Origin: Phaeobacter sp. 11ANDIMAR09
GTDB lineage: Bacteria > Pseudomonadota > Alphaproteobacteria > Rhodobacterales > Rhodobacteraceae
NCBI RefSeq assembly: GCF_001294455.1
Contig: NZ_LIKT01000005.1
Span: 124,001-188,000 of the forward strand
DNA length: 64,000 nucleotides
Direction: 5' to 3'
Made by a program: the position numbers and the translations under genes. Below the pieces are notes generated by a model. It was not told the origin of the DNA, searched no databases, and saw nothing but the letters and a program-made list of their open reading frames with translations. Positions 2,971 through 62,406 of the stretch are shown here, in pieces. Within the stretch, counting starts at the first letter, position 1. Every line of letters begins with the position of its first letter.

Positions 2971-3056
2971 GAAAGGGAGCACTCCCGCCCACCCTTGCGG
3001 CCTTCGAACGAAGGCCAGGGCCGTTGGGGGTGGCGCCGCGCTGACACGCGGCGCGG
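2971..3056 (-). repeat. Structured repeat element A
   Basis: Read on the minus strand, the element has three parts. First is a perfect 8-bp palindrome (arms 3033-3040 and 3047-3054, GCGCCGCG/CGCGGCGC). Then comes a CCACCCCCAACGG spacer and a perfect 8-bp hairpin with a two-base loop (2999-3006 with 3009-3016). It ends with GGGCGGGAG followed by CTCCC and a short T-rich stretch (2971-2990). The same layout recurs in five other places in this window. Confidence 0.7.
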
Positions 3057-3176
3057 CAACGCCTCTTGAGAAGTTGCCCGTAGAACAGGCAGGTCTGTCA
3101 TACGAGACAGGTTTATACACTGCCAACATAGTCCCCCTTTGCCGGTCCCAAGTGAGGCGAGCCAGAGCAATAGAGC

Positions 3177-3261
3177 CCGCGCCGCGCGTCAGCGCGGCGC
3201 TGCCCCCAACGGGAGGCGGGCATCTGTGATGCCAAACGACGGGCGGGAGCCCCCCTTTTTT
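3177..3261 (+). repeat. Structured repeat element B, terminator-like end
   Basis: The palindrome arms are at 3179-3186 and 3193-3200 (GCGCCGCG/CGCGGCGC, loop CGTCAG). They are followed by CCCCCAACGGGAGG, a second hairpin (GGCATC 3219-3224, GATGCC 3228-3233), and GGGCGGGAGCCCCCC running into six T residues (3256-3261). The last part has the form of an intrinsic terminator or attenuator about 80 bases before the AEC gene. It is inverted relative to element A. Confidence 0.7.
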
Positions 3262-3339
3262 GACCACCACGACCCACTTTGCCACCACCTCTAATCTTTC
3301 CATCTTGCCTTTTCACCCGCAGCCGCTACCACTTTGGCG

Positions 3340-4269
3340 ATGGCTGATATTTTCTTTAGAACGCTGCCCTTTTTTGCAATCATCGGCCTGGGATACTGGG
3401 CTGGTCGAAGCCGCTTTTTCAGCGAAGAAGCCACCGCCTATCTGACCAAATTCGTCTTCTTCTTCCCCCTCTCGGCGATGATCTTCCGCTTTGCAGCCAA
3501 TCTGTCCTTTGCGGAGATCTTTGATCCTGACCTGGTCCTCGCCTATCTGTGCGGGACGATGGCTGTTTATCTCTTGGTCACGCTGGTGGCGCTGCTGCGC
3601 CGCCTGGACATGCCCACAGCCGCCGTCGAGGCGCAATGCGCTGCCATCGGCAATGTCGGCTTCCTTGGCCTGCCGATGATGGCCATGCTCTTTGGCGAGG
3701 CCTCCATCGCGCCAATGATGGTGGTTCTAAGTGTTGATCTGGTGGTTTTTTCCTCGCTGATCGTGATCCTGATCAACCTCGGCCGCGGCACCGGTTCGGG
3801 CCTGGGCACGCTGCGGCTGGTGTTTTTGGGCCTGTTGCGCAACCCGATGATCCTGGCCATCTGTGCAGGCCTTGCCTGGTCCGCCGCCGAAGTGCCGATC
3901 CCGGTGCCGATGAATGATTTCCTGTCGATCCTGGGCGGCGCCGCCACCCCTGGCGCGCTTTTTGCCATTGGCGCCTCGCTGGCGTCCAAATCGGCTGAGC
4001 GCATGCAGATCGCCGTCTGGCTCAGCTTTGCCAAGCTGGTACTACATCCGCTTTGCGTTGCCTTCTGCGTTCTCTATCTGCTGCCTGTCACCAGCTTTTC
4101 GGCCATGGTCGCCATTGCCGCCGCATCACTGCCGGTGGCCGGCAATGTCTATATGCTGGCACAGCATTACGGCGTGGCACCGCACCGGGCCTCGGCGGCC
4201 ATTTTGATCTCCACCATAGTCTCCATTTTGACTGTTCCGATGGTGATCGCCTGGGTTTCCGCGCTCTGA
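3340..4269 (+). CDS. AEC-family auxin-efflux-type transporter
   Basis: This 309-residue protein is almost entirely hydrophobic, with about 8-10 membrane segments. It has the two-repeat layout of auxin efflux carriers: N-terminal ADIFFRTLPFFAIIGLGYWA, mid-protein AAIGNVGFLGLPMM, and C-terminal ASLPVAGNVYMLAQHYGV. These match the conserved Asn-Gly/Pro crossover sites of PIN/AEC transporters. Bacterial AEC proteins export or exchange organic acids such as malate; the substrate cannot be read from sequence. I chose ATG 3340 over the TTG six bases earlier. fghA follows 134 bases downstream in the same direction, but co-transcription is uncertain. Confidence 0.85.
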   Translation: MADIFFRTLPFFAIIGLGYWAGRSRFFSEEATAYLTKFVFFFPLSAMIFRFAANLSFAEIFDPDLVLAYLCGTMAVYLLVTLVALLRRLDMPTAAVEAQCAAIGNVGFLGLPMMAMLFGEASIAPMMVVLSVDLVVFSSLIVILINLGRGTGSGLGTLRLVFLGLLRNPMILAICAGLAWSAAEVPIPVPMNDFLSILGGAATPGALFAIGASLASKSAERMQIAVWLSFAKLVLHPLCVAFCVLYLLPVTSFSAMVAIAAASLPVAGNVYMLAQHYGVAPHRASAAILISTIVSILTVPMVIAWVSAL

Positions 4270-4403
4270 GCTTGCCGTGGGTCAAGCTCTTCAGACTATT
4301 GTAACACGATTGCCGCAAAAACAGGGAGAGCTGCCGCAGCCACCACTGGACCTGCGCGCCGCCGACAGGTAGCGATAAGGCAACCATTTATAGGAGCCTC
4401 ACC

Positions 4404-5237
4404 ATGGAAACCGTATCGGAAAACAAAGCCTTTGGCGGACTGCAGGGTGTCTATCGTCATAAGAGCACCGCAACCAACTGCGATATGACCTTTGGTCTCT
4501 TCCTGCCCGAGGAGGCCAAAGACGGCCCAGTTCCGATTCTGTGGTATCTCTCGGGCCTGACCTGCACCCATGAAAACGCCATGACCAAGGCCGGAGCCCA
4601 GGCATGGTGTGCCGAGCAGGGCATCGCCATCGTCTTTCCAGACACCAGCCCGCGCGGCGAAGGGGTTGCGGACGATGAGGCCTACGACCTAGGCCAGGGC
4701 GCCGGGTTCTACGTCAATGCCACCCAGGAGCCCTGGGCCGCGCACTATCAAATGTGGGACTATATCGCCGAAGAACTGCCCGCCCTGCTGGCCGAAAACT
4801 TCGCCATTGATCTCGACCGTCAGGCTATCACCGGCCATTCCATGGGGGGCCATGGCGCGCTGACCCTGGCAATGAACCTGCCCGGTCGGTTCAAATCGGT
4901 CTCTGCCTTTGCGCCGATCTGCAATCCTACCGGTGCCGACTGGGGCCGCAAGCAGCTCTCTGCCTATCTGGGCGAGGATGAAGCTGCCTGGGTCAAGCAT
5001 GATGCCTCGTTGATGATGCGCGAAACCGGATTTGATGGTCCAGTTCTGATTGATACCGGCACGACAGATCAGTTCATTGACCTGCTGCGCCCCGAAGCCC
5101 TTGCCGCCGCCGTTGCCGAAAAGCGCCAAGAGGCAATTTTGCGCCTGCAACCAGGCTATGACCATAGCTATTTCTTTGTTTCCAGCTTCATGGAAGATCA
5201 CGTCACCTTCCACGCCGAAGCCCTGTACCGGGATTAA
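4404..5237 (+). CDS. fghA: S-formylglutathione hydrolase
   Basis: The enzyme is an alpha/beta-hydrolase of the esterase D family that cleaves S-formylglutathione to formate and glutathione, the second step of glutathione-dependent formaldehyde detoxification. The nucleophile elbow GHSMGGHGA places the catalytic Ser at residue 146. The conserved LSGLTCTHEN segment near residue 50 and YDHSYFF near the C-terminus (catalytic His) complete the family pattern. Length (277) is normal. The ATG is preceded by TAGGAG at good spacing. sthA begins three bases after the stop, so the two are co-transcribed. The first-step dehydrogenase is not in this window. Confidence 0.95.
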   Translation: METVSENKAFGGLQGVYRHKSTATNCDMTFGLFLPEEAKDGPVPILWYLSGLTCTHENAMTKAGAQAWCAEQGIAIVFPDTSPRGEGVADDEAYDLGQGAGFYVNATQEPWAAHYQMWDYIAEELPALLAENFAIDLDRQAITGHSMGGHGALTLAMNLPGRFKSVSAFAPICNPTGADWGRKQLSAYLGEDEAAWVKHDASLMMRETGFDGPVLIDTGTTDQFIDLLRPEALAAAVAEKRQEAILRLQPGYDHSYFFVSSFMEDHVTFHAEALYRD

Positions 5238-5240
5238 ACC

Positions 5241-6755
5241 ATGACCACATCCGCAACCCCCTCCATGACTGATTTCGACTACGACTATGATCTGGTGATC
5301 ATCGGCTCCGGTCCTTCGGGGCGGACCGCTGCGATCCAGGCCGGTAAGCTGAAACGCCGGGTGCTGGTCATTGACCGGGCCGATCGGCTGGGTGGGGTTT
5401 CGGTGCATACCGGAACCGTTCCGTCCAAAACCCTGCGGGAAACGGTGCTCAACCTCTCTGGTTGGCGCGAACGCAGCTTTTATGGCCGCTCCTACCGGGT
5501 GAAGGATCAGATCGCCGCCGAGGACCTGAAGGCTCGCCTGCATATGACCTTGGATCATGAGGTCGACGTGCTGGAGCACCAATTCAACCGCAACCACGTG
5601 GAATGGCTGGCAGGCCTCGCCAAATTCATTGGCCCCAATGAGGTTGAGGTCGCCACAGAGGCCGGAGACACCACCCGGATCACCGGCGAAAAGTTCCTCA
5701 TCGCCACCGGCACTCGCACCTACCGACCAGATGATGTGCCCTTCAACGGAAAAACCGTTGTCGACGGGGATGAGTTCCTGGAGATGTCCTCGATCCCCCG
5801 CTCCCTGATTGTGGTTGGCGCCGGTGTTATCGGTGTGGAGTATGCCACCATGTTCTCGACCCTGGATGTGCGGGTCACCCTGATTGAACCCCGCGATACC
5901 TTCTTGGATTTTATCGACAGCACCCTTATTCAGGACTTCACCCATCAGATCCGCGAAAACGGCGTTGATCTTCGTCTTGGCTCTGCGATTGAGAGCATCG
6001 AAGACGAAGGCGACCATATTGAGGTCACGCTGGACAATGGTCGTCACGTGCGCAGCGAGATGCTGCTCTTTGCCGCCGGACGCATGGGCAATACCGATGG
6101 GCTGAACCTCAAATCCGTTGGGCTAGAAACCGATCATCGCGGGCGTCTCAGCGTTGAGCGCAAGACCTATCAGACCGCAGTGCCGCATATCTATGCTACT
6201 GGCGATGTCATCGGCCACCCCTCGCTGGCCTCCACCTCGTTGCAGCAGGGCCGGGTTGCCGCCTGTCACGCGCTGGAAACGCCCACCCTGCCGGAAAGCC
6301 CCTGGTATCCCTATGGCATCTATTCGGTGCCCGAGATGTCCACCTGCGGCATGTCCGAGGAAGAGCTGCAAGAGCGCGGTATCCACTACGAAATCGGTGT
6401 CGCCCGCTTCCGCGAGACCTCACGCGGGCATATCATGGGGCTGGAACACGGCATGCTGAAAATGCTGATCAGCCTCAAAACCCGCCGCCTGTTGGGGGTG
6501 CAGATCGTCGGTGAAGGCGCCACAGAGCTGATCCATATTGGCCAGGCGGTGATGAACCTGCAGGGCACGGTGGACTACTTTGTCCAGAACACCTTCAACT
6601 ACCCGACCCTAGCCGAAGCCTACAAAATCGCAGGTCTCGACGCCTTTAACCGAATGCCCATCCCGGAAGAGTTCAAGGTGAAGAAACCTACAAAACCAGC
6701 GGCAAAACCCAAGGCAAAAACTGCCCCGAGTACCGATAAAAAGGCGGCTAAGTGA
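5241..6755 (+). CDS. sthA: Soluble pyridine nucleotide transhydrogenase
   Basis: This flavoprotein balances NADH and NADPH pools in the cytoplasm. The N-terminal FAD Rossmann motif is [13 protein letters not shown], and a second nucleotide-binding motif [12 protein letters not shown] sits mid-protein. The region that holds the CxxxxC redox disulphide in dihydrolipoamide dehydrogenase-type enzymes reads [17 protein letters not shown], with both cysteines missing, which is characteristic of SthA. The dimerisation domain ends around NRMPIPEEF. It is followed by a ~30-residue Lys/Pro/Ala-rich tail that I do not expect in typical SthA. It is co-transcribed with fghA and overlaps the next start by four bases (GTGA). 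Confidence 0.92.
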
Positions 6756-8408: not shown

Positions 8409-8422
8409 AAAGAGCCAGGACA

Positions 8423-12440: not shown

Positions 12441-13514
12441 ATGACCGATCTCAGCACGCTTTATGCCCAAAAGATTGCCAATGGCGATCTGCGCCCCGAC
12501 CCTGCACAAGAGGCGGTCCTGCCGCAGTTTGACCGTATCTCCGAAGGGCTGCGGGCCGAGCCGGTGAAACGCGGGCTGTTTCGCCGCGCCAGCCCAGCCC
12601 CGGCACCAAAGGGTCTGTATCTTTGGGGCGGAGTTGGTCGCGGCAAATCTATGTTGATGGATCTCTTTGTCGATAGCCTTGGTGATATCCCGTCTCGGCG
12701 TGTGCATTTCCATGCCTTCATGCAGGAAATCCACGCCAAGATGCATGCCGCCCGCCAAGAGGGGGTGCAGGATGCCTTGGCGCCAGTGGCGCAGGAAGTG
12801 GCGGCTTCCGTCCGGGTCCTGGCCTTTGACGAGATGCAGATCTCTGACATCACCGATGCGATGATTGTTGGCCGTTTGTTTGAGGCCCTTTTTGAGGCAG
12901 ATGTCTGTGTTGTCACCACCTCCAACCGGCTGCCGGATGAGCTTTATAAAAACGGGCTGAACCGGCAGCTCTTTTTGCCCTTTATCGCTCTCATCAAGAA
13001 CAAGATGGAGGTCTGGGAGATGGTCAGCCCGGTGGACTATCGTCAGGACCGCCTGAAAGGCAGCGAAGTCTATTTCAGCCCTGCGGATGCGGCGGCGCGG
13101 CAGGCGCTGCAATCGATCTGGCAGGATCTGTCCGGCGGCGATGCCCAGCCCCTAACGCTGGAGGTGAAGGGGCGCGAAGTGGTTCTGCCAGCCTTTCGCA
13201 ATGGTGTCGCTCGCGCAACGTTTTTTGATCTCTGCGGCAAGATGCTGGGGCCTGGCGATTACCTGGCGATTGCTGAGGAGGTGAAGGTCCTGGTGCTGGA
13301 GGGAATTCCCCGGCTTAGCCGCAACAACTTCAACGAGGCCAAGCGCTTTGTTACTCTGATTGATGCGCTCTATGAAGCAAGGGTCCGGCTGATCTGTACG
13401 GCGGCCGCAGAGCCTGAGTTGCTTTATGTCGAGGGCGATGGGGCGTTTGAGTTTGAACGCACCGCCAGCCGCCTGCGAGAGATGCAGGATCAGGACTGGG
13501 GGCAGGCGGAGTAA
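12441..13514 (+). CDS. zapE: Cell division protein ZapE (AFG1-like ATPase)
   Basis: The 357-residue protein has the Walker A motif LWGGVGRGKSMLMD near residue 60 and the Walker B motif VLAFDEMQISDITDAM around residue 130. Sensor region VVTTSNRLPDELYKNGLNRQ is the highly conserved AFG1/ZapE sequence. FFDLCGKMLGPGDYLAIAE and RLSRNNFNEAKRFVTLIDALYE complete the family pattern. ZapE is a cytoplasmic AAA-type ATPase associated with FtsZ ring constriction; homologues in mitochondria handle membrane-protein turnover. A GC hairpin sits directly on the stop codon. Confidence 0.95.
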   Translation: MTDLSTLYAQKIANGDLRPDPAQEAVLPQFDRISEGLRAEPVKRGLFRRASPAPAPKGLYLWGGVGRGKSMLMDLFVDSLGDIPSRRVHFHAFMQEIHAKMHAARQEGVQDALAPVAQEVAASVRVLAFDEMQISDITDAMIVGRLFEALFEADVCVVTTSNRLPDELYKNGLNRQLFLPFIALIKNKMEVWEMVSPVDYRQDRLKGSEVYFSPADAAARQALQSIWQDLSGGDAQPLTLEVKGREVVLPAFRNGVARATFFDLCGKMLGPGDYLAIAEEVKVLVLEGIPRLSRNNFNEAKRFVTLIDALYEARVRLICTAAAEPELLYVEGDGAFEFERTASRLREMQDQDWGQAE

Positions 13515-13530: not shown

Positions 13531-13583
13531 CGCGCCAAGGGCGCTCACCCCCAGGATATTTGCGGCCAAATGAAAGCGAGACC

Positions 13584-13664
13584 GCGCCGCGTCAGCGGCG
13601 CCGGGCCCAAGGGGCGAGGATCATTCTGCAAGAATGGTTCAAGACAGGCGGGAGCTCTAGCCTG
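13584..13664 (+). repeat. Structured repeat element F
   Basis: The palindrome is GCGCCGC (13584-13590), loop GTCA, GCGGCGC (13595-13601). GGGCCCAAGGGG follows as spacer. The second hairpin is CATTCT (13622-13627), loop GCA, AGAATG (13631-13636). The end is CAGGCGGGAGCTCTAGCCTG, which forms its own stem. The element lies between the convergent zapE and folC genes. Confidence 0.65.
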
Positions 13665-13665: not shown

Positions 13666-13688
13666 CAGATCAGATCAGATCAGATCAG
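13666..13688. repeat. CAGAT pentanucleotide tandem repeat
   Basis: Four CAGAT units run from 13666 to 13685, followed by a partial CAG. The array abuts the folC stop codon (TGA, 13685-13687 on the minus strand). It lies outside the reading frame, so copy-number change would not alter the protein. Confidence 0.8.
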
Positions 13689-14959
13689 CCGTTTTCGCGC
13701 AGGATATGGCCAGCAAGGTAAAGTGAGCCACAAATCAACACACGCGCGTCGGGATCTTTTTTCACGATATCCTGTAGCGCCTCTGCAGTGTTGTCGGCGG
13801 TTCCTGCTGCAAGCCCAACAGATTGAGCTGCGGCCTGGGTTGCGGCGGCAGGCAGGGTGTTGACCTCATCCGGAATCGAGATTGCCGTGAGGCTTGCAGC
13901 CTGTCGAGCCAAAGGCGCCAAATAGCCGGTCACATCCTTGGTATTGAGCATACCGCAGATCAGATGCGTAGGTCGTTTGGGCAGGCCGGCCAGGACCTCC
14001 TCCAACGCAAGCCCCGCCGCCGCATTGTGGCCACCGTCCAACCAAAGCTCGGCCTGCCCCGCCAGACCGACCAGTGGGCCCCGCTTCAGCCGTTGCATCC
14101 GGGCGGGCCATTCCGCCTGGGTCATGGCCGCCTCAAAGGCCGCCTCATCTGCGCCAAGATGGCGCAGCACGGCCAGGGCCGCGCCGGCGTTTTGCACCTG
14201 ATGTGCCCCCAGGAGCGCGGGCAGGGGCAGATCCAGCAATCCGCGCTCATCCTGATAGACCAAGCGGCCCCGCTCCAGGCTGACATGCCAGTGTTGGCCA
14301 TAGGCAATCACGGGCGCTCCCAGGCGGGCGGCGGTGGCCTCGATGACCTCCAGTGCCTCTTCCGGCTGGGGACCGACGACGACCGGCACGCCCCGTTTGA
14401 TGATCCCGGCCTTTTCAGTCGCGATCTTACTCAGGGTGTCGCCGAGGAATTGCTCATGATCGATGGAGATCGGGGTGATCACCGTCACCTCGGGCTTGGC
14501 AATCACATTGGTGGCATCCAGCCGCCCGCCCAGGCCCACTTCCAACAGAGTGAAATCCGCCGCAGTGCGGGCAAAGGCCAAGAGACCGGCCACGGTGGTG
14601 ATTTCAAAATAGGTGATGCTCTCGCCGCCATTGGTGGCGTAGCATTCATCGAGGATCTCGGTGAGATGCGCCTCTGAGATCAGCTCTCCGCCCAGCCGGA
14701 TACGCTCGTGGAATCGGGCCAGATGGGGCGAGGTATAGGCATGTACGGATTTACCCCAGCCTTCAAGACCGGCGCGGATCATTGCCTGGGTCGAACCCTT
14801 GCCATTGGTGCCCGCGATATGGATCACCGGAGGCAGCTTGTCCTGTGGGTCGTCCAGCCGTTTCAGCAGGTGCCAGACCCGGTCGAGGGTCAGATCAATG
14901 ATCTTGGGGTGCAGCGCCAGCATACGGGCGAGGATGGCGTCGGACGTCTGGGCAGTCAT
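13685..14959 (-). CDS. folC: Folylpolyglutamate / dihydrofolate synthase
   Basis: FolC adds glutamate residues to folates and, in bacteria, usually also joins dihydropteroate to glutamate. The P-loop is HIAGTNGKGSTQAM (near residue 50), followed by AYTSPHLARFHERI and the conserved EVGLGGRLDATNV with metal- and ATP-binding residues. The C-terminal ligase domain contains LWLDGGHNAAAG. The length (424 residues) is typical. I chose ATG 14959 over a TTG 21 bases upstream, since GAGAG sites precede the ATG. It lies 91 bases downstream of accD on the same strand, the frequent accD-folC arrangement. Confidence 0.95.
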   Translation of the reverse strand: MTAQTSDAILARMLALHPKIIDLTLDRVWHLLKRLDDPQDKLPPVIHIAGTNGKGSTQAMIRAGLEGWGKSVHAYTSPHLARFHERIRLGGELISEAHLTEILDECYATNGGESITYFEITTVAGLLAFARTAADFTLLEVGLGGRLDATNVIAKPEVTVITPISIDHEQFLGDTLSKIATEKAGIIKRGVPVVVGPQPEEALEVIEATAARLGAPVIAYGQHWHVSLERGRLVYQDERGLLDLPLPALLGAHQVQNAGAALAVLRHLGADEAAFEAAMTQAEWPARMQRLKRGPLVGLAGQAELWLDGGHNAAAGLALEEVLAGLPKRPTHLICGMLNTKDVTGYLAPLARQAASLTAISIPDEVNTLPAAATQAAAQSVGLAAGTADNTAEALQDIVKKDPDARVLICGSLYLAGHILRENG

Positions 14960-15002
14960 GGCAGGCTCTCTCTGGCGCAACAGGAGGAAGGGGCAAACGA
15001 CA

Positions 15003-29906: not shown

Positions 29907-30251
29907 GTCAAAGCTCCAAGGCAAGGGCGGATGAAAAAGATTTCTCTGCCTTTTAGCCGCTTGCCCCGCCGGGGTGAACCGGCAACCTGTCACAGATGGC
30001 GTTATCAGTTGTTGCCGCCCTGCCTGACGCGGCAACAGCGGCGCGCGACGCGCCGGATCTGATCCCAGCAGCTTGGACAGGCCCCGCGCTTCACCCTCTG
30101 GGTTCTGCGACGTCAGCAAATGTCGCCCCCCTGTCAGGGGGCGCAGCGAGCGCGAAACTTCCCCTCTGAGCAAGCTCGCAGCCGGAGCAAGCTGCGGGCC
30201 AGGAACCCCAGGTGCGCAGCCCCTACAAAGGGCATGCCTCCCCAAAAGACC
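29907..30251. other. Intergenic region upstream of gpmI
   Basis: This 345-base gap should hold the gpmI operon promoter, though I cannot assign boxes with confidence. It contains a hairpin with an 8-pair stem near 30124-30142 (CGCCCCCT/AGGGGGCG) and an imperfect direct repeat GAGCAAGCTCGCAGCC / GGAGCAAGCTGCGGGCC around 30170-30202. No gene was seen. Confidence 0.5.
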
Positions 30252-31208
30252 TCACCCTGATTTTGTCAGCGATAAAAAGACATCCTCCAGATCAGCCTCG
30301 GCGGTTTTAACATCGCGGATGGAAATCCCAGCACTATGTACAGCGGCCAGCACCTCTTCGGCACTGGTCTTATTGCCGTGATACCGCAATAAGACCGCGC
30401 CATCGTCGCGCATCTCGGCTGAGATGCCAGCCCCCTGTGGCAGCCTCGCAACCGGGCTGGCGGGATGGACCACCATGGATTTGGCATCCAGCCGTCCCAG
30501 CAGATTGGCAGTGCTGTCGCGCGCCACCACCTCTCCCTGGTCGATGATGGCGATCTCATCACACATCTCCTCGGCCTCTTCCAGATAATGAGTGGTCAGG
30601 ATGATGGTCATGCCCTGCCGGTTCAGCTTGCGAATATTGGCCCAGAGCATCTGCCGCAGCTCGATATCGACCCCGGCGGTGGGTTCGTCCAGCACCAGAA
30701 TATGAGGGTGATGCACCAGCGCCTTGCCCAGCAAGAGCCGTCGCCGCATGCCCCCCGACAGGGTACGAGCATAGGCATGGGCCTTATCCGTTAGCCCGAC
30801 CATTCCCAGGATCTCATCACTGCGACGATCTGCCTTTGGCACACCATATAGGCCCGCCTGCACCTCCAGCGCGCCGCGCGGAGTAAAAAACGGATCCAGA
30901 TTCAGCTCCTGCGGCATCACGCCGATGGCGGCGCGGCTTTGGCGCGGGTTGGCGTCCTGATCAAAGCCCCAGATCGTTACCCGACCAGATGTCTTGCGCA
31001 CCAAACCCGCCATGATGTTGATCATGGTGGATTTGCCAGCGCCATTTGGCCCCAGAAGCCCAAATACCGAGCCCCGCGGGATGGTGAGGTCAATGCCCTT
31101 CAGCGCGTGTTTTTCGGGCTGCCCCTTGGCGCCTTTGTAGGTTTTGCGCAAGCTTTCGATACGGATTGCATCATCTCTCACAGCAGTACTTGCCCCCGGT
31201 TTTTGCAT
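30252..31208 (-). CDS. ABC transporter ATP-binding protein (ABC-2/drug-export type)
   Basis: The 318-residue ATPase has an intact Walker A (GLLGPNGAGKSTMINIMAG), a signature motif (TLSGGMRRRLLLGKALVHHP), Walker B (ILVLDEPTAGVD) and the switch His in ILTTHYLEEAEEM. The C-terminal extension is like that of CcmA/NodI-type exporters. No permease gene lies nearby, so its membrane partner must be encoded elsewhere. ATG 31208 is the chosen start, although its ribosome site is poor; GTG 31180 is an alternative. It is divergent from the zinc-finger gene with a 55-base gap. Confidence 0.88.
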   Translation of the reverse strand: MQKPGASTAVRDDAIRIESLRKTYKGAKGQPEKHALKGIDLTIPRGSVFGLLGPNGAGKSTMINIMAGLVRKTSGRVTIWGFDQDANPRQSRAAIGVMPQELNLDPFFTPRGALEVQAGLYGVPKADRRSDEILGMVGLTDKAHAYARTLSGGMRRRLLLGKALVHHPHILVLDEPTAGVDIELRQMLWANIRKLNRQGMTIILTTHYLEEAEEMCDEIAIIDQGEVVARDSTANLLGRLDAKSMVVHPASPVARLPQGAGISAEMRDDGAVLLRYHGNKTSAEEVLAAVHSAGISIRDVKTAEADLEDVFLSLTKSG

Positions 31209-32810: not shown

Positions 32811-35618
32811 ATGAGCGAAACAAAATTCGGTAAGGGCTGCCACCTGCATTTGATTGATGGCTCCGCCTTCATCTTTCGCGCCTATCATGCGCTGCCACCG
32901 CTAACGCGGAAATCCGACGGGCTTCCCATTGGCGCTGTTGCCGGGTTCTGCAACATGTTGTTTAAACAGATCGAAGACAACAAGGGTCCCGATGCGCCGA
33001 CCCATGTGGCGGTGATCTTTGACCATTCCGGCAAGAGCTTTCGCAATGATCTGTACGACCTCTACAAGGCCAATCGCCCCCCTGCCCCCGAAGATCTGCG
33101 GCCGCAGTTCCCACTGACCCGTGACGCCACCCGCGCTTTTAACATCGCCTGCAAAGAGGTCGAAGGCTTTGAGGCCGATGACATCATCGCCACCCTCGCC
33201 CATCAGGCCCGAGATGCCGGCGGACGCTGCACGATTATCTCGTCCGATAAGGATCTGATGCAGCTGGTTGGCGGCGGCGTTGAAATGCTGGACGCGATGA
33301 AGAACAAGCGCATCGACAGCGATGGGGTGCACGATAAATTCGGCGTGGGCCCCGACCGGGTGGTCGATGTGCAGGCCCTGGCCGGCGACAGCGTCGACAA
33401 TGTGCCAGGCGCGCCTGGTATCGGCATCAAAACCGCTGCTTTGCTGATCAATGAATATGGCTCCCTCGAAGAGCTGTTGGATCGCGCCGAAGAGATCAAA
33501 CAGCCCAAACGTCGCCAGACGCTGATCGAAAAACGCGACCAGATCGAGATGTCCAAGACATTGGTGCAGCTGGACTGCACAATGGAGTTGGATTTCACCA
33601 TCGAGGATCTCGAGGTGCAGGACCCGGATCCAGAAACCCTGCTTGGCTTTTTGTCACAGATGGAGTTCCGCACCCTGACCAAGCGAATGGCGGACCAGAT
33701 GGGGCTGGACGCCCCCGCCATCCCCGAAACCAGTGCCTCGGGCTCTGCCACATCGGCCGAACCAGCTGCGGCTGTGGCCTTTGACGCCGAAAAATATGAA
33801 TGCGTCAGCGATGCGGCTGCACTGCAGGTCTGGATCGACCGAATTTATGACCGTGGCTATGTTGCCGTGGATACGGAAACCACCGGGCTGGATGCCATGG
33901 TGGTGGATCTGGTTGGGGTTTCGCTCTGCGTTGATGCAGGCGAGGCCTGCTATATTCCGCTGACCCACAAGCAAGGCGGTGATGATCTCTTTGGTGGCGA
34001 GGGCCTCGCCGAGGGGCAGATGCCACTGGAGCAGGCCCTGACGATGCTGAAGCCAATGCTGGAAGATCCGGCCGTGCTCAAAATCGGCCAGAACATGAAA
34101 TATGACGCCAAGATCCTGCATCGTTACGGCATCACCGTTGCGCCGATCGACGACACAATGCTGATGTCTTATGCGCTGCACGCGGGCGAGCATAACCACG
34201 GCATGGATATCCTGTCGGAGCGCTATCTCGATCATAAACCGATCCCAATCAAACCTCTGCTCGGCACCGGCAAATCCGCCATCACCTTTGACCGGGTGCC
34301 CATTGCCGACGCGGTGCCCTATGCCGCAGAGGATGCCGATATCACCCTGCGCCTTTGGCAACACTTCAAGCCCGAACTGCATCAGCGGCAGGTAACAGTG
34401 GTCTATGAAACCCTAGAGCGCCCGCTGGTCCCCGTGCTGGCTGAGATGGAACGCAATGGCATCAAGGTGGATCGCGACACCCTGAGCCGCATGTCCAATG
34501 CCTTTGCCCAGAAGATGGCCGGACTGGAGGATGAAATCCACGAGCTGGCCGGTCAGCCCTTCAATGTCGGCTCGCCGAAACAGCTTGGCGAAATCCTGTT
34601 TGATAAGCTTGAGCTGCCCGGCGGCAAAAAGGGCAAGACCGGCGCCTATGCAACCGGTGCAGATATCCTCGAGGATCTGGCCACCGAACACGCCCTGCCC
34701 GCCCTGGTGCTGGACTGGCGGCAACTGAGCAAACTGAAATCCACCTACACGGATGCGCTGCAGGACCATATCAATCCAGACACCGGTCGGGTACATACCT
34801 CCTATATTCAGACCGGGGCCAATACCGGCCGCATGGCCTCCTCTGATCCCAACCTGCAGAACATTCCCGTGCGCTCCGAGGAAGGTCGCCGTATCCGTGA
34901 GGCCTTTGTGGCGGAAGAGGGCAATGTGCTGCTGTCGCTCGACTACAGCCAGATCGAGCTACGGATCCTTGCCCATGTGGCCGGGATCGACGCGCTGAAA
35001 GCCGCCTTTGCCGCCGGCCAGGACATTCACGCCATGACAGCTTCGGAAATGTTCGATGTTCCGATGGAAGAGATGACAGCAGATATCCGGCGCCAGGCCA
35101 AGGCGATCAACTTTGGCGTCATCTATGGTATCTCTGGCTTTGGTCTGGCCCGCAATCTGCGCATCCCCCGGGCCGAGGCCCAGGGGTTTATCGACCGCTA
35201 CTTTGAGCGCTTCCCCGGCATTCGCAGCTATATGGACCGGACCGTGGAATTTGCCAAGGAACACGGCTACGTGCAGACCCTATTTGGCCGCAAGATCCAC
35301 ACGCCAGAGATCGCCGCCAAAGGCCCACGCGCGGGCTTTGCCAAACGCGCTGCCATCAATGCGCCGATCCAGGGCACGGCCGCCGATGTGATCCGCCGCG
35401 CCATGGTACAAATGCCGCCCGCCATCGCCCATCTGCCCGCGCGAATGCTGCTGCAGGTCCATGATGAACTGCTGTTTGAAGTGCCGGAAGCCGCAGTGGA
35501 AGAGACCATTGAGACCGCGCGCCGGGTCATGGAAAACGCCGCCGATCCCGCCCTGCATCTGGATGTGAAGCTCAGCGTTGATGCCGGCAGGGGCAAAAAC
35601 TGGGCCCAAGCGCATTAA
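32811..35618 (+). CDS. polA: DNA polymerase I
   Basis: At 935 residues from ATG 32811 this is a full three-domain Pol I. The N-terminal 5'-nuclease contains LHLIDGSAFIFRAYHALP and FEADDIIATLAH. The 3'-5' proofreading domain has an intact DxE (D354, E356 in VAVDTETTGL). The polymerase domain has SLDYSQIELRILAHVAG, RRQAKAINFGVIYGISGFGL and LQVHDELLFEVPE with the catalytic carboxylates. It fills Okazaki-fragment gaps and repairs DNA. The frame is open 83 codons upstream inside the flavodoxin-like gene, but that extension is not Pol I-like. Confidence 0.97.
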   Translation: MSETKFGKGCHLHLIDGSAFIFRAYHALPPLTRKSDGLPIGAVAGFCNMLFKQIEDNKGPDAPTHVAVIFDHSGKSFRNDLYDLYKANRPPAPEDLRPQFPLTRDATRAFNIACKEVEGFEADDIIATLAHQARDAGGRCTIISSDKDLMQLVGGGVEMLDAMKNKRIDSDGVHDKFGVGPDRVVDVQALAGDSVDNVPGAPGIGIKTAALLINEYGSLEELLDRAEEIKQPKRRQTLIEKRDQIEMSKTLVQLDCTMELDFTIEDLEVQDPDPETLLGFLSQMEFRTLTKRMADQMGLDAPAIPETSASGSATSAEPAAAVAFDAEKYECVSDAAALQVWIDRIYDRGYVAVDTETTGLDAMVVDLVGVSLCVDAGEACYIPLTHKQGGDDLFGGEGLAEGQMPLEQALTMLKPMLEDPAVLKIGQNMKYDAKILHRYGITVAPIDDTMLMSYALHAGEHNHGMDILSERYLDHKPIPIKPLLGTGKSAITFDRVPIADAVPYAAEDADITLRLWQHFKPELHQRQVTVVYETLERPLVPVLAEMERNGIKVDRDTLSRMSNAFAQKMAGLEDEIHELAGQPFNVGSPKQLGEILFDKLELPGGKKGKTGAYATGADILEDLATEHALPALVLDWRQLSKLKSTYTDALQDHINPDTGRVHTSYIQTGANTGRMASSDPNLQNIPVRSEEGRRIREAFVAEEGNVLLSLDYSQIELRILAHVAGIDALKAAFAAGQDIHAMTASEMFDVPMEEMTADIRRQAKAINFGVIYGISGFGLARNLRIPRAEAQGFIDRYFERFPGIRSYMDRTVEFAKEHGYVQTLFGRKIHTPEIAAKGPRAGFAKRAAINAPIQGTAADVIRRAMVQMPPAIAHLPARMLLQVHDELLFEVPEAAVEETIETARRVMENAADPALHLDVKLSVDAGRGKNWAQAH

Positions 35619-35630: not shown

Positions 35631-35720
35631 GAGGGGGGCTCCCGCCCGTCTCGGAACAATCAAAGATTGATCCTCCCCCGTTGGGCCTAGCGCCGCGCCG
35701 ACGCGCGACGCGGCAGCGCC
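35631..35720 (-). repeat. Structured repeat element C
   Basis: Read on the minus strand: palindrome (arms 35690-35697 and 35704-35711, one mismatch), spacer AGGCCCAACGGGGGAGG, second hairpin (CAATC 35657-35661 with GATTG 35665-35669, three-base loop), and end GGGCGGGAGCCCCCC. It points back towards polA, antisense to it. Confidence 0.65.
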
Positions 35721-35759
35721 AATATGCAACCCATTTCCTATTGGGGCGGCCCTGTGGGG

Positions 35760-35823
35760 CCGATTCGGGTCAAGGGCGGCAAAGCCGCCGCGCCCTGCGC
35801 GGCTTGCCCTTGAGGCGAATCGG
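35760..35823. repeat. Large nested inverted repeat
   Basis: Arms of 18 bases (35760-35777 and 35806-35823) match at 16 of 18 positions: CCGATTCG-gg-TCAAGGGC against GCCCTTGA-gg-CGAATCGG. Between them are smaller GC hairpins (GGCGGC-aaa-GCCGCC overlapping the left arm, and GCGC-cct-GCGC). It lies between elements C and D. Confidence 0.75.
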
Positions 35824-35893
35824 TCCCTTGTTACGCTCGCATTGGTGCTTCAGGGCAGACCTGCCCCTGAAGCGCTTCTCAGCAGCCCTTTTT

Positions 35894-35989
35894 GCGCCGC
35901 GCGTCAGCGCGGCGCCACCCCCAACAACGAAGGGACATCCTTTGGGATGTTCCGGAATTGGCGGGAGCGCTAGCCCCCCCCGCAAAAAA
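35894..35989 (+). repeat. Structured repeat element D
   Basis: Palindrome arms at 35894-35901 and 35908-35915 (GCGCCGCG/CGCGGCGC, loop CGTCAG) are identical to element B. The spacer is CACCCCCAACAACG. The second hairpin is ACATCC (35935-35940) with GGATGT (35945-35950), extended on both sides. The end is GGCGGGAGCGCTAGCCCCCC. The upstream flank shares CAGACCTGCC and CTTCTCA with the flank of element A. Confidence 0.7.
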
Positions 35990-36030: not shown

Positions 36031-36267
36031 TCAGTCCTGATGCGGAGGTTTCACCCAAGAGGCCACCAGACCTCGGACAACCGGTCCAGCAATCAACACG
36101 ACAACAAAGGCAATCGGCCAACCAAAAAACCAGGCGTTCAGCCAGGTCGAAACCACCTGCCCACTGAACCCAACCGTTTTGATCGACGCAACCAAGGTCA
36201 CGATACAGGACATCAGCCCCGACAGGATCAATCCAACAAGGGCGGGGGCAAAACGAGCAGGGATCAT
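36031..36267 (-). CDS. DUF2798 small membrane protein
   Basis: The 78-residue product has two membrane segments (VGLILSGLMSCIVTLVASI and FFGWPIAFVVVLIAGPVVRGL) and starts with IPARFAPALVGLILSGLMS, the recognisable DUF2798 pattern of a two-helix membrane protein. The function of this family is unknown. It stands alone, convergent with polA. Confidence 0.85.
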   Translation of the reverse strand: MIPARFAPALVGLILSGLMSCIVTLVASIKTVGFSGQVVSTWLNAWFFGWPIAFVVVLIAGPVVRGLVASWVKPPHQD

Positions 36268-36411: not shown

Positions 36412-37161
36412 CTACATCCAGCCGAGGCTATCCTCGGTGCACAGGGTAGAGGGCGTATATTCGGCGCTCACCCAGCCCTCATACCCACTGTCATCAATAG
36501 CACGAAACAGCGAGTCAAAATCCACCGGCCCGGTACCGGGTTCGCAGCGACTGGGTGCCGCGCCGATCTGCACATGCACGGCCTGTTTGCCAAAACTCTC
36601 CCAGACCTTGGCGGCATCGCCGTGGATCATCTGCGCATGATAGGCATCATACTGCAGCCCCACATTGGGCCGGTTCACCGCCTCCAGAACTTCGGCCGCC
36701 AGATTGTAGTCATCCAGAAAATAGCCCGGCTGATCACCGGCATTCAACGGCTCGATGGTAAAGCGTTGCTGAGGCGCAAAATCCGCAGCCCAGCGCAGGT
36801 TGGTAATAAAGGTATCGCGGGCTTCATCGCCCTTGGCATAGCCCGCCATGACGTGGATCAGCCCAACATTGAGCATCTCGCCATAGCGCAGCACCCGACG
36901 GATATCGCGTTGGAACCGATCCACCCCACCTGGTAGCGCCGCATAGCCCGGCTCTCCGCCGGTATAATTCGGTGGCGGCGCGTTGATCAGCAAAAGCTCG
37001 AGCCCATTGGCCAGCAAGGCCCGCTGGGTCTCCTTGGCCGCAAAATCATAGGGGGACAGGATTTCCACCGCTGTGAAGCCCGCATTGGCTGCCGCCGCAA
37101 ATCGGTCCAGATAGGGCAGCTCGGCAAAGAGCATTGAGATATTTGCCGCAAATCGAGGCAT
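36412..37161 (-). CDS. Hydroxypyruvate isomerase-family TIM-barrel protein
   Basis: The 249-residue product matches the Hyi/xylose isomerase-like TIM barrel: FAANISMLFAELPYLDRFAAA at the N-terminus, RFTIEPLNAGDQPGYFL with the first catalytic Glu, LQYDAYHAQMIHGD, VHVQIGAAPSRCEPGTG and GWVSAEYTP with the second Glu. Such enzymes interconvert hydroxypyruvate and tartronate semialdehyde in glyoxylate metabolism. No gcl or glxR gene is adjacent, so the substrate assignment is by family only. GGAG precedes the ATG. Confidence 0.88.
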   Translation of the reverse strand: MPRFAANISMLFAELPYLDRFAAAANAGFTAVEILSPYDFAAKETQRALLANGLELLLINAPPPNYTGGEPGYAALPGGVDRFQRDIRRVLRYGEMLNVGLIHVMAGYAKGDEARDTFITNLRWAADFAPQQRFTIEPLNAGDQPGYFLDDYNLAAEVLEAVNRPNVGLQYDAYHAQMIHGDAAKVWESFGKQAVHVQIGAAPSRCEPGTGPVDFDSLFRAIDDSGYEGWVSAEYTPSTLCTEDSLGWM

Positions 37162-57750: not shown

Positions 57751-57908
57751 GGAGTGGGACCTCGTTGGGTGCGGCTGCTCTGATTTGAGCGCCACAATCC
57801 CACAGGTCGATTCGGGCGGCAAGAGCAAGGGGCAAAGCTTTACGCTTCGCCCCCTTGGTTTTATTCATATCATCCGCTGAAACAGCCCAAACCGGCCACC
57901 AGGGAGGC

Positions 57909-58199: not shown

Positions 58200-58328
58200 G
58201 TACCTCTTTGGAATAACAGCCTTACAGGTAAGCAGCCTGTGGCATTTGTGCAAGCCTTCCGCGAGGTTGCGGTTGACCATTGGTTAATCGGTGGCAAGAG
58301 GGGCACAACTCGACAGGAGAAGCCGCAA

Positions 58329-58880: not shown

Positions 58881-58934
58881 CCTAAGTCCCTGTCTTATCG
58901 CAGATAACAAACAGCTGGGGACAGGCGGGAAAAG

Positions 58935-60299
58935 ATGAGCAATATTTCAACGCGCAAGCGCATTTGGGGCTGGTGGTTCTTTGACTGGGCCAGCCAACCC
59001 TATCACACGCTGCTGGTGACCTTTGTCTTTGGCCCCTTCTTTGCCGCCGTCGCTGCAAATCACTATTTGGGGGAGGGCCTGGAGCCCGAAGCCGCCAAGG
59101 CCCAGGCCCAGACCATGTGGTCGATTGGCATGACCGCCACCGGGCTGATGATTGGGTTTGGAGCGCCCTTTATCGGCGCTCTGGCCGATATTTCCGGACG
59201 CAAACGCCCCTGGCTCATTGGCTTTTCGCTGATGTATATCCTGGGCGCCTGGGGGATCTGGTACTCGGACCCCGCCGGCAGCAACCTGTGGTGGATGCTG
59301 GTAACCTTTGGCTTTGGCTTCATTGGCGCGGAATTTGCATTGATCTTTGCCAATTCGCAGCTGCCCAGCCTCGGCAGCAAGGACGATGTCGGGGCGATCT
59401 CTGGCTCTGGCTTTGCCTTTGGCTATCTTGGCGGGGTGATTGCACTCTTCATTATGCTGTTGCTCTTTGTGGAACAGGGCACTGGAAAAACCCTGATCGG
59501 ATTGGACCCAATCCTGGGACTGGAGGCTGCAACCCGAGAAGGCACCCGCGCGGTGGGGCCCTTTACGGCGTTGTGGTTCCTCGTCTTTATGGTGCCCTAT
59601 TTCCTCTGGGTCAAAGACGATGCTGGCACCGGCACGCGCGGCACGCTTGGGCAGGCGGTCACTCTGGTGGTCACTTCGATCAAGGCGCTGCGGCACCGCT
59701 TCAGCCTGGCCAGTTATCTTGGCTCTTCGATGCTCTACCGCGATGCGCTCAATGGGCTTTATGGCTTTGGCGGCGTTTATGCCAGCCTGGTCCTGGACTG
59801 GGAGATCACCCAGATCGGTATCTTTGGCATCATCTCAGCAATTGCCGCTGCAGCCTTTAGCTGGGTTGGCGGCATGGCCGACAAACGCTTTGGCCCCAAA
59901 CCCGTCATCGTGGCTGCCATCCTGGTGCTGACGCTGGTCTGCATCACCGTGGTGAACATGTCGCGTGAGGCGCTCTTTGGCATGCCTCTGGCTGCAGAAT
60001 CCACACTGCCCGACGCCATCTTCTTTGGTTGCGGCATGCTGATCGGCGGCTTCGGCGGTATCTTGCAGGCCGCAAGCCGCAGCCTGATGGTACGCCATAC
60101 CGATCCTGCAAAGGCGACTGAGAGCTTTGGGCTCTACGGTCTGTCGGGTCGCGCCACCGCCTTTTTGGCGCCTGGGCTGATTGGGCTTGCCACAACCGTG
60201 ACAGGTAGCGCACGATTGGGTATCTCCCCGGTGATCTTCCTGTTTATCCTCGGGTTGATTGTGTTGCGTTGGGTCAAGGCAGAAGGAGACCAGGGTTGA
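58935..60299 (+). CDS. UMF1-type MFS transporter
   Basis: This 454-residue protein has about 11-12 membrane helices and begins with IWGWWFFDWASQPYHTLLVTFVFGPFF, characteristic of the UMF1/Atg22-like MFS branch. The loop GALADISGRKRPWLIGF follows helix 2, and AGGMADKRFGPKPV-like sequence (WVGGMADKRFG) marks the second half. Substrates in bacteria are unclear. Its TGA overlaps the TTG start of mepA, so the two are coupled, which hints at a wall-turnover product as cargo, though this is speculative. Confidence 0.85.
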   Translation: MSNISTRKRIWGWWFFDWASQPYHTLLVTFVFGPFFAAVAANHYLGEGLEPEAAKAQAQTMWSIGMTATGLMIGFGAPFIGALADISGRKRPWLIGFSLMYILGAWGIWYSDPAGSNLWWMLVTFGFGFIGAEFALIFANSQLPSLGSKDDVGAISGSGFAFGYLGGVIALFIMLLLFVEQGTGKTLIGLDPILGLEAATREGTRAVGPFTALWFLVFMVPYFLWVKDDAGTGTRGTLGQAVTLVVTSIKALRHRFSLASYLGSSMLYRDALNGLYGFGGVYASLVLDWEITQIGIFGIISAIAAAAFSWVGGMADKRFGPKPVIVAAILVLTLVCITVVNMSREALFGMPLAAESTLPDAIFFGCGMLIGGFGGILQAASRSLMVRHTDPAKATESFGLYGLSGRATAFLAPGLIGLATTVTGSARLGISPVIFLFILGLIVLRWVKAEGDQG

Positions 60300-61165
60300 G
60301 ACTGCTATTTGCGAGTTTTTGTTTATTGATTGCCGGCTTGATCAGCGCCAGTGCTGCGACCCCGGCCAAGCAGCTTTTTGGCGCCAAGGGCAGCGCATCG
60401 CAGCAGACGCCGGCCGCCTTTGGTTCCTATGCCAAGGGCTGTGTCGCCGGGGCCGTGCAACTGCCGGAAACCGGCCCGACCTGGCAGGCCATGCGGCTGA
60501 GCCGAAATCGCAACTGGGGCCACCCTGAAACCATCAGCTTTATCGAAAAGCTAAGCCAGGTCGCGGCCCGCCAACCCGGCTGGGACGGGCTATACATTGG
60601 GGACATCAGCCAACCCCGGGGCGGACCAATGCTGTCGGGGCACCGTAGCCATCAGGTGGGCCTGGATATCGACATCTGGATGCGCCCGGCGGATCGGTTG
60701 AACTACAGCCGCGCCCAGCGCGAGAAGATCTCGTCGATCTCGATGCGGCGCAACAACGGCGCCTTTGTAAATTCCGACTGGACCCGCGCCCATCACGAGA
60801 TCATCAAGGCAGCCGCGCAGGACAAACGGGTGGCACGTATCTTTGTCTTTCCCGGCGCCAAAGTGCAGATGTGCAAGGACGCCAAGGGCGACCGGCGCTG
60901 GCTGCGCAAGATCCGCCCCTGGTGGGGGCATCACTACCATTTCCATGTGCGCCTTGCCTGCCCCAAGGGATCGCAGGGCTGCGTCAATCAGGATCGCCCC
61001 CCTCGTGGGGACGGCTGCGATGCGGCCCAGAAATGGGTCGATGACATCCTGAGCCCACCCCCGCCAAAGCCTGCAGATCCCAATGCGCCAGCTCCAAAGC
61101 CCCGCCGGGAGTACACCCTGTCGGATCTGCCCCGGCAGTGCTCTGCCGTCTTGCAATCAAACTGA
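60296..61165 (+). CDS. mepA: Penicillin-insensitive murein endopeptidase
   Basis: The 289-residue product has a signal peptide (LLFASFCLLIAGLISASA) and the MepA zinc motifs: LSGHRSHQVGLDIDIWMRP with the HxxxD pair, and WGHHYHFHVRLACPKGSQGC with the final ligands. It cleaves the D-Ala-mDAP cross-bridges in peptidoglycan in the periplasm. Six cysteines could give disulphides. The start is TTG 60296, eight bases after AGGAG, and overlaps the UMF1 stop. A Pro-rich C-terminal tail follows the catalytic domain. Confidence 0.93.
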   Translation: MRLLFASFCLLIAGLISASAATPAKQLFGAKGSASQQTPAAFGSYAKGCVAGAVQLPETGPTWQAMRLSRNRNWGHPETISFIEKLSQVAARQPGWDGLYIGDISQPRGGPMLSGHRSHQVGLDIDIWMRPADRLNYSRAQREKISSISMRRNNGAFVNSDWTRAHHEIIKAAAQDKRVARIFVFPGAKVQMCKDAKGDRRWLRKIRPWWGHHYHFHVRLACPKGSQGCVNQDRPPRGDGCDAAQKWVDDILSPPPPKPADPNAPAPKPRREYTLSDLPRQCSAVLQSN

Positions 61166-61176
61166 GCCTGAACACC

Positions 61177-62085
61177 ATGAAGCGTAGAAAACTGATCGGT
61201 GGCCTTGTTCTGGCCTCCGGCCTCATTGCGGCGGCAGCAGGCTTTGCTGCGGCCCAACTGGACCGGTTGGAAAACGCCGCCCAGTTTACAGGCAGCTACA
61301 CCTGGCGAGCGACCCCCGATTGGTTCGGGGGGTTCTCCGGGCTTGAGCTCTCAGCGGATGGATCGCAACTGGTTGTCCTAAGCGACCGCGCCCATGTGGC
61401 CCGGGCATATATCCACCGGCAAGACGGTGAGATTTCAGAGATTTCCCTGCGCAGTGCCCAGCATCTGCGCTCTTCCAAGGGGCGACAGCTCCTGGGACGG
61501 ATCATGGACAGCGAAGGCCTGGCCCTGGCACCCGGTGGCTCGCTGTTTATCTCCTTTGAAGGCCTGGCCCGCGTGGTGCATCACCAAACCGAGGCCAGCC
61601 GTGCCCGCGTGCTGCCGCGTCCCCATGATTTTCGCGGTTTACCCCTGAACAAATCGCTCGAGGCCCTCGCTATTGATCCCCAGGGGCGGCTGTATACCCT
61701 ACCGGAAAACGCACTGAATGCCGAAGGAGAGATCCCGGTCTGGCGCTGGAATGGCGCACGCTGGAGCCAGCCTTTCACCCTGCCCCGGCGGGGTGGCTTT
61801 CTGCCCGTGGGTGCCGATTTTGGCCCCGACGGGCGGTTTTACCTGCTGGAGCGCAACTTTGTCTTTATCGGTTTCCGCAGCCGTTTGCGCCGCTGGGACA
61901 TCACCGATCAGGGCGCGACAAACGAAGTGACCCTATTGGAAAGCAGCACCGGCGTGCATGACAACCTCGAAGGGCTATCCGTCTGGCGCGATGCCACGGG
62001 AACCCTGCGTGCCACCATGGTGTCTGACGACAATTTCAAATCCCTGCAACGCACGGAAGTGGTCGAATACACACTGCCGGAATAA
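61177..62085 (+). CDS. Phytase-like esterase domain protein
   Basis: The 302-residue product has a signal peptide or anchor (LIGGLVLASGLIAAAAGFAAA) and a beta-propeller-like body: GGFSGLELSADGSQLVVLSDRAH, MDSEGLALAPGGSLFISFE, LEALAIDPQGRLYTLPE and DNLEGLSVWRD. This matches the 'esterase-like activity of phytase' family (PF13449-type). The pattern LEALAID/DNLEGLSV holds the conserved Asp/Glu residues. The substrate is unknown. It starts 11 bases after mepA, so it is probably part of the same operon. Confidence 0.85.
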   Translation: MKRRKLIGGLVLASGLIAAAAGFAAAQLDRLENAAQFTGSYTWRATPDWFGGFSGLELSADGSQLVVLSDRAHVARAYIHRQDGEISEISLRSAQHLRSSKGRQLLGRIMDSEGLALAPGGSLFISFEGLARVVHHQTEASRARVLPRPHDFRGLPLNKSLEALAIDPQGRLYTLPENALNAEGEIPVWRWNGARWSQPFTLPRRGGFLPVGADFGPDGRFYLLERNFVFIGFRSRLRRWDITDQGATNEVTLLESSTGVHDNLEGLSVWRDATGTLRATMVSDDNFKSLQRTEVVEYTLPE

Positions 62086-62406
62086 GGGAAAGACACTTTC
62101 ACTCTGCGTCACAGATATTGCAGATACTGGCCCTGCTAACCTTTAGTGCCCAAACATGTCAGCCGTCCTCGGCTTCTCTACCTGCCGCAACCGCACCGCG
62201 CGGCAGCGCGGTGCCGGACCCAACGGGAGAGACACATTCTTTGAATGTGGCGATCCGGGCGGGAGCCCCACCTTTCGCAGCTCCGCTGGGTTCTTCGATG
62301 CTTCAAAACACTTGCCAAGTGTCTCCAACACGGCTAGGTGAGCGCGTCTTCCGCACAAGATGCGGAACAAGTCGCCGCGACCTTGTATAAAAAACGGAAC
62401 TGAAAA
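62086..62406. other. Structured leader region before the VUT transporter
   Basis: The 321-base gap holds element E and two more hairpins: ACACTT-gcc-AAGTGT (62308-62322) and TTCCGCA-caaga-TGCGGAA (62349-62367). The second ends 39 bases before the transporter start. No ORF with a ribosome site was seen. Confidence 0.6.
62193..62268 (+). repeat. Structured repeat element E
   Basis: The palindrome is GCACCGCG (62193-62200) with CGCGGTGC (62207-62214). Relative to elements B and D both strands have changed (C to A and G to T), which keeps the pairing. The spacer is GGACCCAACGGGAGAG. The second hairpin is CACATTC (62233-62239) with GAATGTG (62243-62249), loop TTT. The end is GGGCGGGAGCCCC. Confidence 0.7.

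Follow-up and report, generated by a model that had tools for sequence, protein, structure and literature searches.

A modular family of structured repeats behind convergent genes in Phaeobacter and other Rhodobacterales, with a possible role at message ends

What does it mean when a bacterial genome carries one folded element at dozens of dispersed places, most of them between genes that run towards each other? The question is raised by a 64,000-nucleotide stretch of the genome of Phaeobacter sp. 11ANDIMAR09 (here G000; contig C5, positions 124001-188000, in an assembly of 4.7 Mb in 101 contigs), called the window below, in which six structured elements, A to F, had been picked out and offered as an RNA motif, a terminator class or a mobile repeat. 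By direct reading, and by the coordinates of the covariance model R1, the six elements are present where they had been placed, and they share one build that from 5' to 3' comprises a GC-rich hairpin (P1), three spacer nucleotides (NGG as a rule, NCC in some copies), a foot CCCAA, a second stem and a foot GCGGGAG. The CCCAAC-type spacer of the original prediction stands as the CCCAA foot found in each copy and fails in its last letter, as F reads CCCAAG. Elements A and C lie on the minus strand and B, D, E and F on the plus strand, and the six out-fold most of their own shuffled versions (z −2.1 to −3.4). The reading that we favour, at somewhat less than an even chance, is that the family is a modular, structured RNA of the sense-strand 3' untranslated region (3'-UTR) that would close the presumed transcripts of convergent genes, by termination and/or by protection of their ends.

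The family is much larger than six. An exact pattern matched 50 places in the genome and a reversed control pattern 14, and R1, built from 32 cores of similar length chosen from 44 listed in the same genome and aligned with MAFFT, found 65 places at E≤0.1, with both feet at the expected place in 63 of them; one weak match (C19:53095, E 0.034) is doubtful. The six copies originally recognized are thus real, the family was undercounted, and a lack of further copies in the same genome, named beforehand as grounds for giving up the idea, is not what was found. When R1 was run over 60 relatives, matches were obtained in 19, namely the window's own genome, 11/11 genus-mates and 7/24 other genera of the family, with 0/24 in other families; in a set of 120 family genomes, with one per genus and the own genome included, 23 have the element at E≤1e-4. 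Both searches scored a capped number of candidates, which makes the per-genome counts minimum values and may have cost some weak matches. A pattern scan of named genomes used the most common form, class 1 (CCCAA-CGGGAG...CGACGG-GCGGGAG), and at least 117 stretches matched. The 80 loci used come from genomes which, by their names (Rubricella and Mangrovicoccus among them), we take to belong to Rhodobacterales, except one metagenome-assembled genome labelled Alphaproteobacteria only. They gave 113 copies from other genera, 111 of which, with the 63 own copies, make up a set of 174 footed copies.

No named Rfam family was matched, as a search of the 64-kb window with Rfam release 15 at gathering thresholds returned 0 matches. 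Under relaxed settings the window gave, besides two matches at other places, a sub-threshold sbcD match over A (2935-3089, minus strand; E 3.4, 22.5 bits where 40 are required); in eight loci ncS54, SorY, SorX and CRISPR-DR29 came up, none of them reaching its threshold (best E 0.041). The ncS54, SorY and SorX similarity lies in L044 at 708-788 on the minus strand, opposite to the element, and these three and the sbcD match are probably chance similarities among GC-rich hairpins. In a plasmid collection element E had no match, and a 5.4-kb query around C and D matched five records only, in pieces covering 4-20% of it. No paper describing such a repeat in Rhodobacterales was found by title or abstract in the open-licence literature, a search that does not show its absence from print.

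The second stem differs in sequence between copies and remains paired, which had been taken as the mark of selection on structure, and the statistical test proposed for this claim bears it out strongly. In the 32 copies of the own genome, aligned by MAFFT and not fitted to the structure, the covariation score was 0.381 versus 0.153 for shuffled alignments (0/500 shuffles reached it) and 0.071-0.221 for structures slid along the alignment, with 78.0% of paired cells against 63.8% after shuffling. The score for the 113 copies from the 80 loci of other genera was 0.525 versus 0.120, numbers that lean toward the model, since this alignment was fitted to R1 and the loci were selected by class 1. 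The pair just inside the feet swaps: among the 174 copies it is C-G in 139, G-C in 22, A-T in 5 and no standard pair in 8, and CCCAAC/GGCGGGAG and CCCAAG/CGCGGGAG are therefore one motif. From the feet inward class 1 shows C-G, G.G, G-C, G.A, A.G and G-C where other copies have Watson-Crick pairs, so that, to judge from its letters, class 1 would hold a tandem G.A/A.G step. Pairing between the GG spacer and the C run was also inspected, and the columns hardly vary.

The same variation tells which strand folds. When G-T and A-C were given equal scores in picking the best stem, the internal oppositions of the second hairpin came to 71 G-T against 13 A-C in all copies (p 8e-11), that is, 25:7 in the own genome (p 0.002) and 46:6 in the others, and the excess of G-T identifies the GCGGGAG strand as the folded one.

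The placement of the copies is just as marked. Genes around them were called with a small purpose-written gene caller; in a check of 10 random loci, Pfam matches at E≤0.001 agreed with the called strand for 19/20 flanking genes, the remaining gene having no match, and one of the 19 (prefoldin, 6.8e-4) was below Pfam's own cut-off. The 65 own copies lie between convergent genes in 53 cases, between codirectional genes in antisense in six and in sense in four, and between divergent genes in two (A and B), and the 113 copies from other genera divide into 57 convergent, 25 antisense, 16 sense and two divergent, with 11 at a locus edge and two inside a called gene. Counted by region, 43/53 element-bearing regions are convergent versus 47/313 junctions in 20 stretches of five relatives (Fisher p 2e-21) and versus 82/338 gaps of at least 120 bp in 100 loci (p 2e-15), the latter control itself holding element-bearing gaps, as many of the 100 loci were chosen for having a copy. 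At 107/141 of the convergent and codirectional-antisense sites, no more than 60 bp separate the GCGGGAG end from the stop of the opposing gene. In the window and five relatives, with orthologous gaps counted separately, the 15 convergent gaps with an element measure 160-657 bp, and 29/40 of those without are under 150 bp.

A second module, U, lies between C and D (35757-35884, plus strand) and consists of a three-way junction (about 35757-35827), a hairpin (about 35844-35877, GGGCAG/CTGCCC) and a box CTTCTCAGCA at 35875-35884. The outer helix of the junction covaries and measures about 11 bp; a GG/GG internal loop, a TCAAGGG/CCCTTGA helix that is conserved and a pair of hairpins complete it. 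The window copy folds with z −5.7, and the same fold is found in four copies of the own genome (z −3.2 to −6.0). Twelve loci were tried for an alignment, ten matched and nine were used, one shortened match being dropped; over these nine own-genome copies the covariation score was 0.446 versus 0.141, with 93.9% of cells paired against 77.7% after shuffling. The derived model, R2, finds 18 copies in the genome and 7-18 in each of the 11 genus-mates, and together R1 and R2 have already listed hundreds of candidate copies.

Among the 18 own U copies, 13 have a sense element behind them (four of these also an inverted one in front), and 14 lie between convergent genes. The ten convergent copies that lack an inverted partner in front start 4, 10, 11, 13, 19, 21, 23, 30, 31 and 66 nt past the sense stop codon, and the four that have one start 97-138 nt past it. 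Nothing points more clearly to a 3'-UTR RNA than this stop-codon register of the unpaired U copies. In the genus-mates 21/27 U loci are convergent. Three U modules without a sense element (L305 from 1706, L307 from 1686, L309 below 1531 on the minus strand) are followed, as seen by eye, by a shared GCGCGG(T/A)AGCGCTC-like stretch, which may represent a further, third type of end module.

Message-end placement, one-strand folding, the register of U and the site-by-site conservation described below are the reasons for reading the family as a sense-strand RNA that would close transcripts. The full sense arrangement runs from the stop codon over about 20 nt to the U module (junction, hairpin and CTTCTCAGCA), then P1, CCCAA, the variable hairpin and GCGGGAG, followed by a C-rich and, in this genus, a T-richer stretch, and finally the opposing gene's stop codon. 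Many sites hold the P1 and CCCAA/GCGGGAG module alone, and many hold two modules back to back, presumably one per transcript. The folded RNA would help RNA polymerase to stop and/or block 3'-5' exonucleases before the message enters the opposite gene.

Several observations weigh against this reading. P1, with 21 G-T and 30 A-C oppositions (own genome 11:4, others 10:26), lacks a strand bias in the RNA direction, and therefore no folded strand is claimed for it. At single convergent sites the GCGGGAG end is the nearer to the opposing stop in 44/65 cases (p 0.006), a modest preference. In the window and the five relatives, again with orthologous gaps counted separately, convergent gaps of at least 150 bp do without the element in 11/26 cases and have it in 15/26. 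No sense gene comes next upstream of 8/65 own copies (six codirectional-antisense, two divergent) or of 27/113 others (25 antisense, two divergent), and A and B, lying between divergent genes, have their 3' ends facing gene starts. Sense elements are missing behind 5/18 own U copies, and the U starts at the 21 convergent loci of the genus-mates, where copies with and without partners were not separated, range over 12-140 nt past the sense stop. Finally, TTTT at +4 to +25 occurs in 15/63 own copies (control 3) and 10/111 others (control 1). An 'antisense insulator', with the element always hugging the opposing gene, had also been considered and is weakened by the 44/65 at single convergent sites.

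With a U tract after the stem in a minority of copies, a canonical intrinsic terminator was rejected. Intrinsic terminators are likewise hairpins between a gene end and an opposing gene, and the C run after GCGGGAG is followed in this genus, and not in others, by a T-richer stretch (57-63% T at +8 and +9) that resembles their tail; however, they need neither conserved feet nor a build of several hairpins. A home-made terminator scan fired at 0/80 convergent ends without the element, 4/30 ends with it and 8/56 codirectional ends, and also in 5/44 divergent controls, which makes the zero merely indicative. From these low counts the genomes seem to rely little on U-tract terminators, and given so few T runs and terminators the mechanism may lie in the protection of ends or in stopping by a factor, and not in intrinsic termination. 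Of the alternatives first offered, an RNA acting at 3' ends is accordingly preferred to a purely mobile repeat, on the strength of the strand test, the 3'-end placement and U, and the canonical terminator falls away. A bolder extension, which we regard as doubtful, is a lineage-wide modular RNA code for message ends in Rhodobacterales, where interchangeable modules behind convergent stop codons would replace U-tract terminators and a putative factor would read the fixed feet while the stems drift freely.

The unbiased P1 palindrome, together with the position of copies between convergent genes, is what a DNA-level device would lead one to expect, such as a cruciform or a gyrase or nucleoid-protein site that absorbs supercoils between such genes. 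Supercoil absorption has been proposed for the bacterial interspersed mosaic elements (BIMEs) of E. coli. A cruciform does not predict a second hairpin folded on one strand (71 versus 13), and U is oriented behind stop codons, so that we consider this explanation very unlikely. Somewhat less improbable, if still unlikely, is a regulatory RNA, with the copies yielding 3'-UTR-derived small RNAs or forming a protein-binding hub, in which U, CTTCTCAGCA and the feet would serve for contacts and not as ends. The size and high covariation of U, its conserved box and the near invariance of the feet among detected copies fit such a role. The genes next to the window copies and at 10 further loci, however, are unrelated to one another, which speaks against one specific regulon; the lack of an Rfam match at thresholds counts against it as well, and the part of the small-RNA paper on R. 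pomeroyi that was covered mentions no such family (PMC4809877).

Comparison of genomes bears on both the RNA reading and its main competitor. The window is syntenic over long stretches with five genus-mates. C and D are present in 6/6 genomes, E in 5/6 (absent from G007) and F in 4/5 (G005, G007 and G008 included), being absent at the orthologous site of G010; A and B are comparable in three genomes and present in 3/3. For 66 orthologous pairs at six sites the identity is 99.4% in the feet, a value biased upward because copies are detected by the model and by the feet, and 90.8% over the whole foot module; the flanks reach 82.1% upstream and 76.9% downstream, and random pairs, aligned just as leniently, 71.7%. 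By eye, two-sided stem changes are seen in E of G010 (ACATT/AATGT to ACAGT/ACTGT), in A of G007 (GGCC.../...GGCC to AGCC.../...GGCT) and in D of G010; not every change at these sites is compensated, and single mismatches remain, for instance in E of G003 and G005. In these last two genomes E has lost the left half of P1 and kept the foot module. About 0.5-0.7 kb of extra sequence stands upstream of E in them, at sites orthologous to 62085-62200. An insertion hot spot at 30064-30254 holds extra DNA of about 2.5 kb in G005, 3 kb in G007 and 20 kb in G008, and an extra element copy is found there in G007 and G008 only.

Such turnover would suit a non-autonomous mobile palindromic repeat of the repetitive extragenic palindrome (REP) or BIME kind, whose lost or trans-acting transposase would read hairpins on one DNA strand and for which gene 3' ends would be safe harbours, a possible explanation but not one that we think probable. 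The copies are dispersed and modular and form back-to-back pairs in which two classes face each other in several cases; presence is patchy (the 23/120 genomes above), and sites differ among species (F absent from G010, E from G007, one site in G007 and G008 only). According to two papers, REPs likewise favour convergent gaps (PMC1525189, PMC3733652). Against mobility alone, most compared sites are genus-wide, and same-site compensatory changes keep the stems paired, unlike passive decay. The Y1 transposase family PF01797 is moreover missing from 11/12 genus genomes (G000 and 10 of its 11 genus-mates), and an association with REP-associated tyrosine transposases (RAYTs) was on that ground rejected for this genus. 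Among 36 genomes, G006 matches 38/121 positions of the profile, and of the element-rich genera G018 has one full match and G016 none. No copy with an internal gene was reported, although no systematic search for one was made.

Within pairs, one central P1 can serve both mates (C1:81071/81126 and C17:42775/42835), and several of the listed pairs have class 1 on one side and, on the other, the class starting CCCAAGGC, a start found in 10/63 own and 8/111 other copies. Copies with the related stems GGGGGAGG...CCGAGACGG occur at unlinked sites (C, C7, C17 and C25), so that the family must also have spread by duplication at some time, like REPs. Past dispersal is needed alongside the reading as 3'-end RNA, which would imply a REP-like spread long ago.

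How the family stands to known repeats follows from the same traits. It satisfies a broad definition of REPs and BIMEs, having 65 dispersed intergenic palindromic copies, inverted pairs and convergent neighbours in 43/53 regions. Both tagged REP superfamilies form dimers and lie near 3' ends, between convergent as well as unidirectional genes; the CGTC REPs are mainly alphaproteobacterial and without a dedicated transposase (PMC3733652). CGTC families are said there to occur in all alphaproteobacterial orders; none of the Rhodobacterales genus names tried occurs in the main text (PMC3733652). These REPs resemble the present family as dispersed palindromes with no dedicated transposase, mostly in head-to-head dimers (heterodimers in several families) and at convergent 3' ends (PMC3733652), and the family shares with them the missing transposase, the position next to gene 3' ends and the head-to-head dimers. 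GACGG, which is CGTC on the other strand, stands before GCGGGAG in 15/63 own and 84/111 other copies, the latter having been selected by class 1 and known tag variants being uncounted. The AT stem start of CGTC REPs next to the tag is seen in only 1/63 own and 1/111 other copies. A CGTC REP has a stem of 8-9 bp starting with complementary A/T and a CCA tail, whereas the unit described here is about 85 nt long and combines two hairpins with two fixed feet; its two stems covary freely, and there is the extra three-way-junction module. Distant kinship with CGTC REPs is nevertheless conceivable, given those letters on the other strand.

The GTAG REPs, and the REP doublets (REPINs) that go with RAYT transposases, are also intergenic hairpin repeats in inverted pairs; in contrast, the six window copies have CCCAA and GCGGGAG feet with no GTAG foot, and the genus largely lacks the Y1 transposase. 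The BIMEs of E. coli and the Rhizobium-specific intergenic mosaic elements (RIMEs) are, like this family, intergenic mosaics of several palindromic modules. They are not known to share its sequences or modules. Integron attC sites were dropped on inspection of the letters, since there is only one attC-like foot, in both orientations and with no array. The family is therefore filed as a new REP-like variant with RNA-motif character, a member of neither tagged superfamily.

The window copies, with coordinates from R1, illustrate most of these arrangements. Element A (2974-3064, minus strand; P1, CCCAA, the variable hairpin GGCCTTC/GAAGGCC and GCGGGAG) is the left partner in a back-to-back pair with B (3169-3257, plus), a class 1 copy reading CCCAACGGGAG...CGACGGGCGGGAG and then CCCCCCTTTTTT, and the pair stands between a TetR gene (2232-2873, minus) and a membrane-transporter gene (3334-4269, plus). 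Element F (13574-13662, plus), which reads CCCAAG, is a single copy between convergent zapE (12441-13514, plus) and folC (13685-14980, minus). Between zapE and F, at 13540-13575, CCCCCAGGATATTT...GGCCAAATGAAAG is conserved in relatives and may be another common gene-end motif; a form of it persists in G010, which has no F. A short tandem GATCA repeat adjoins F at 13668-13690 in G000 and not in G005, G007 or G008.

Element C (35631-35721, minus) is antisense to polA (plus), which ends at 35618, and lies 12 bp past its stop codon. Element D (35884-35975, plus) has P1 at 35894-35915, CCCAA at 35920-35924, the variable hairpin and GCGGGAG at 35961-35967. The stop of a small minus-strand open reading frame (36031-36267, 78 aa, low coding score) lies 55 bp beyond D. 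The frame has called counterparts at the equivalent position in G005, G003 and G008, and its product looks, by its letters, like a small membrane protein. A hydroxypyruvate-isomerase-like gene (36412-37161, minus) comes after it and, were the small frame discounted, would be the gene opposing C and D, at 36412. Element E (62183-62273, plus) has codirectional neighbours, a phytase-like gene (61138-62085, plus) and a queuosine-precursor transporter gene (62407-63030, plus).

Rhodobacterales abound in the sea. Few gene ends in the examined stretches of this genus have a recognizable terminator, and a covarying family present in 15/26 of the longer convergent gaps could help to show how messages are ended and protected in these bacteria. 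The biology of REPs gains a case in which the repeats look selected for a one-strand structure at each site, and the question whether such repeats are parasites or parts becomes testable with pairing mutants.

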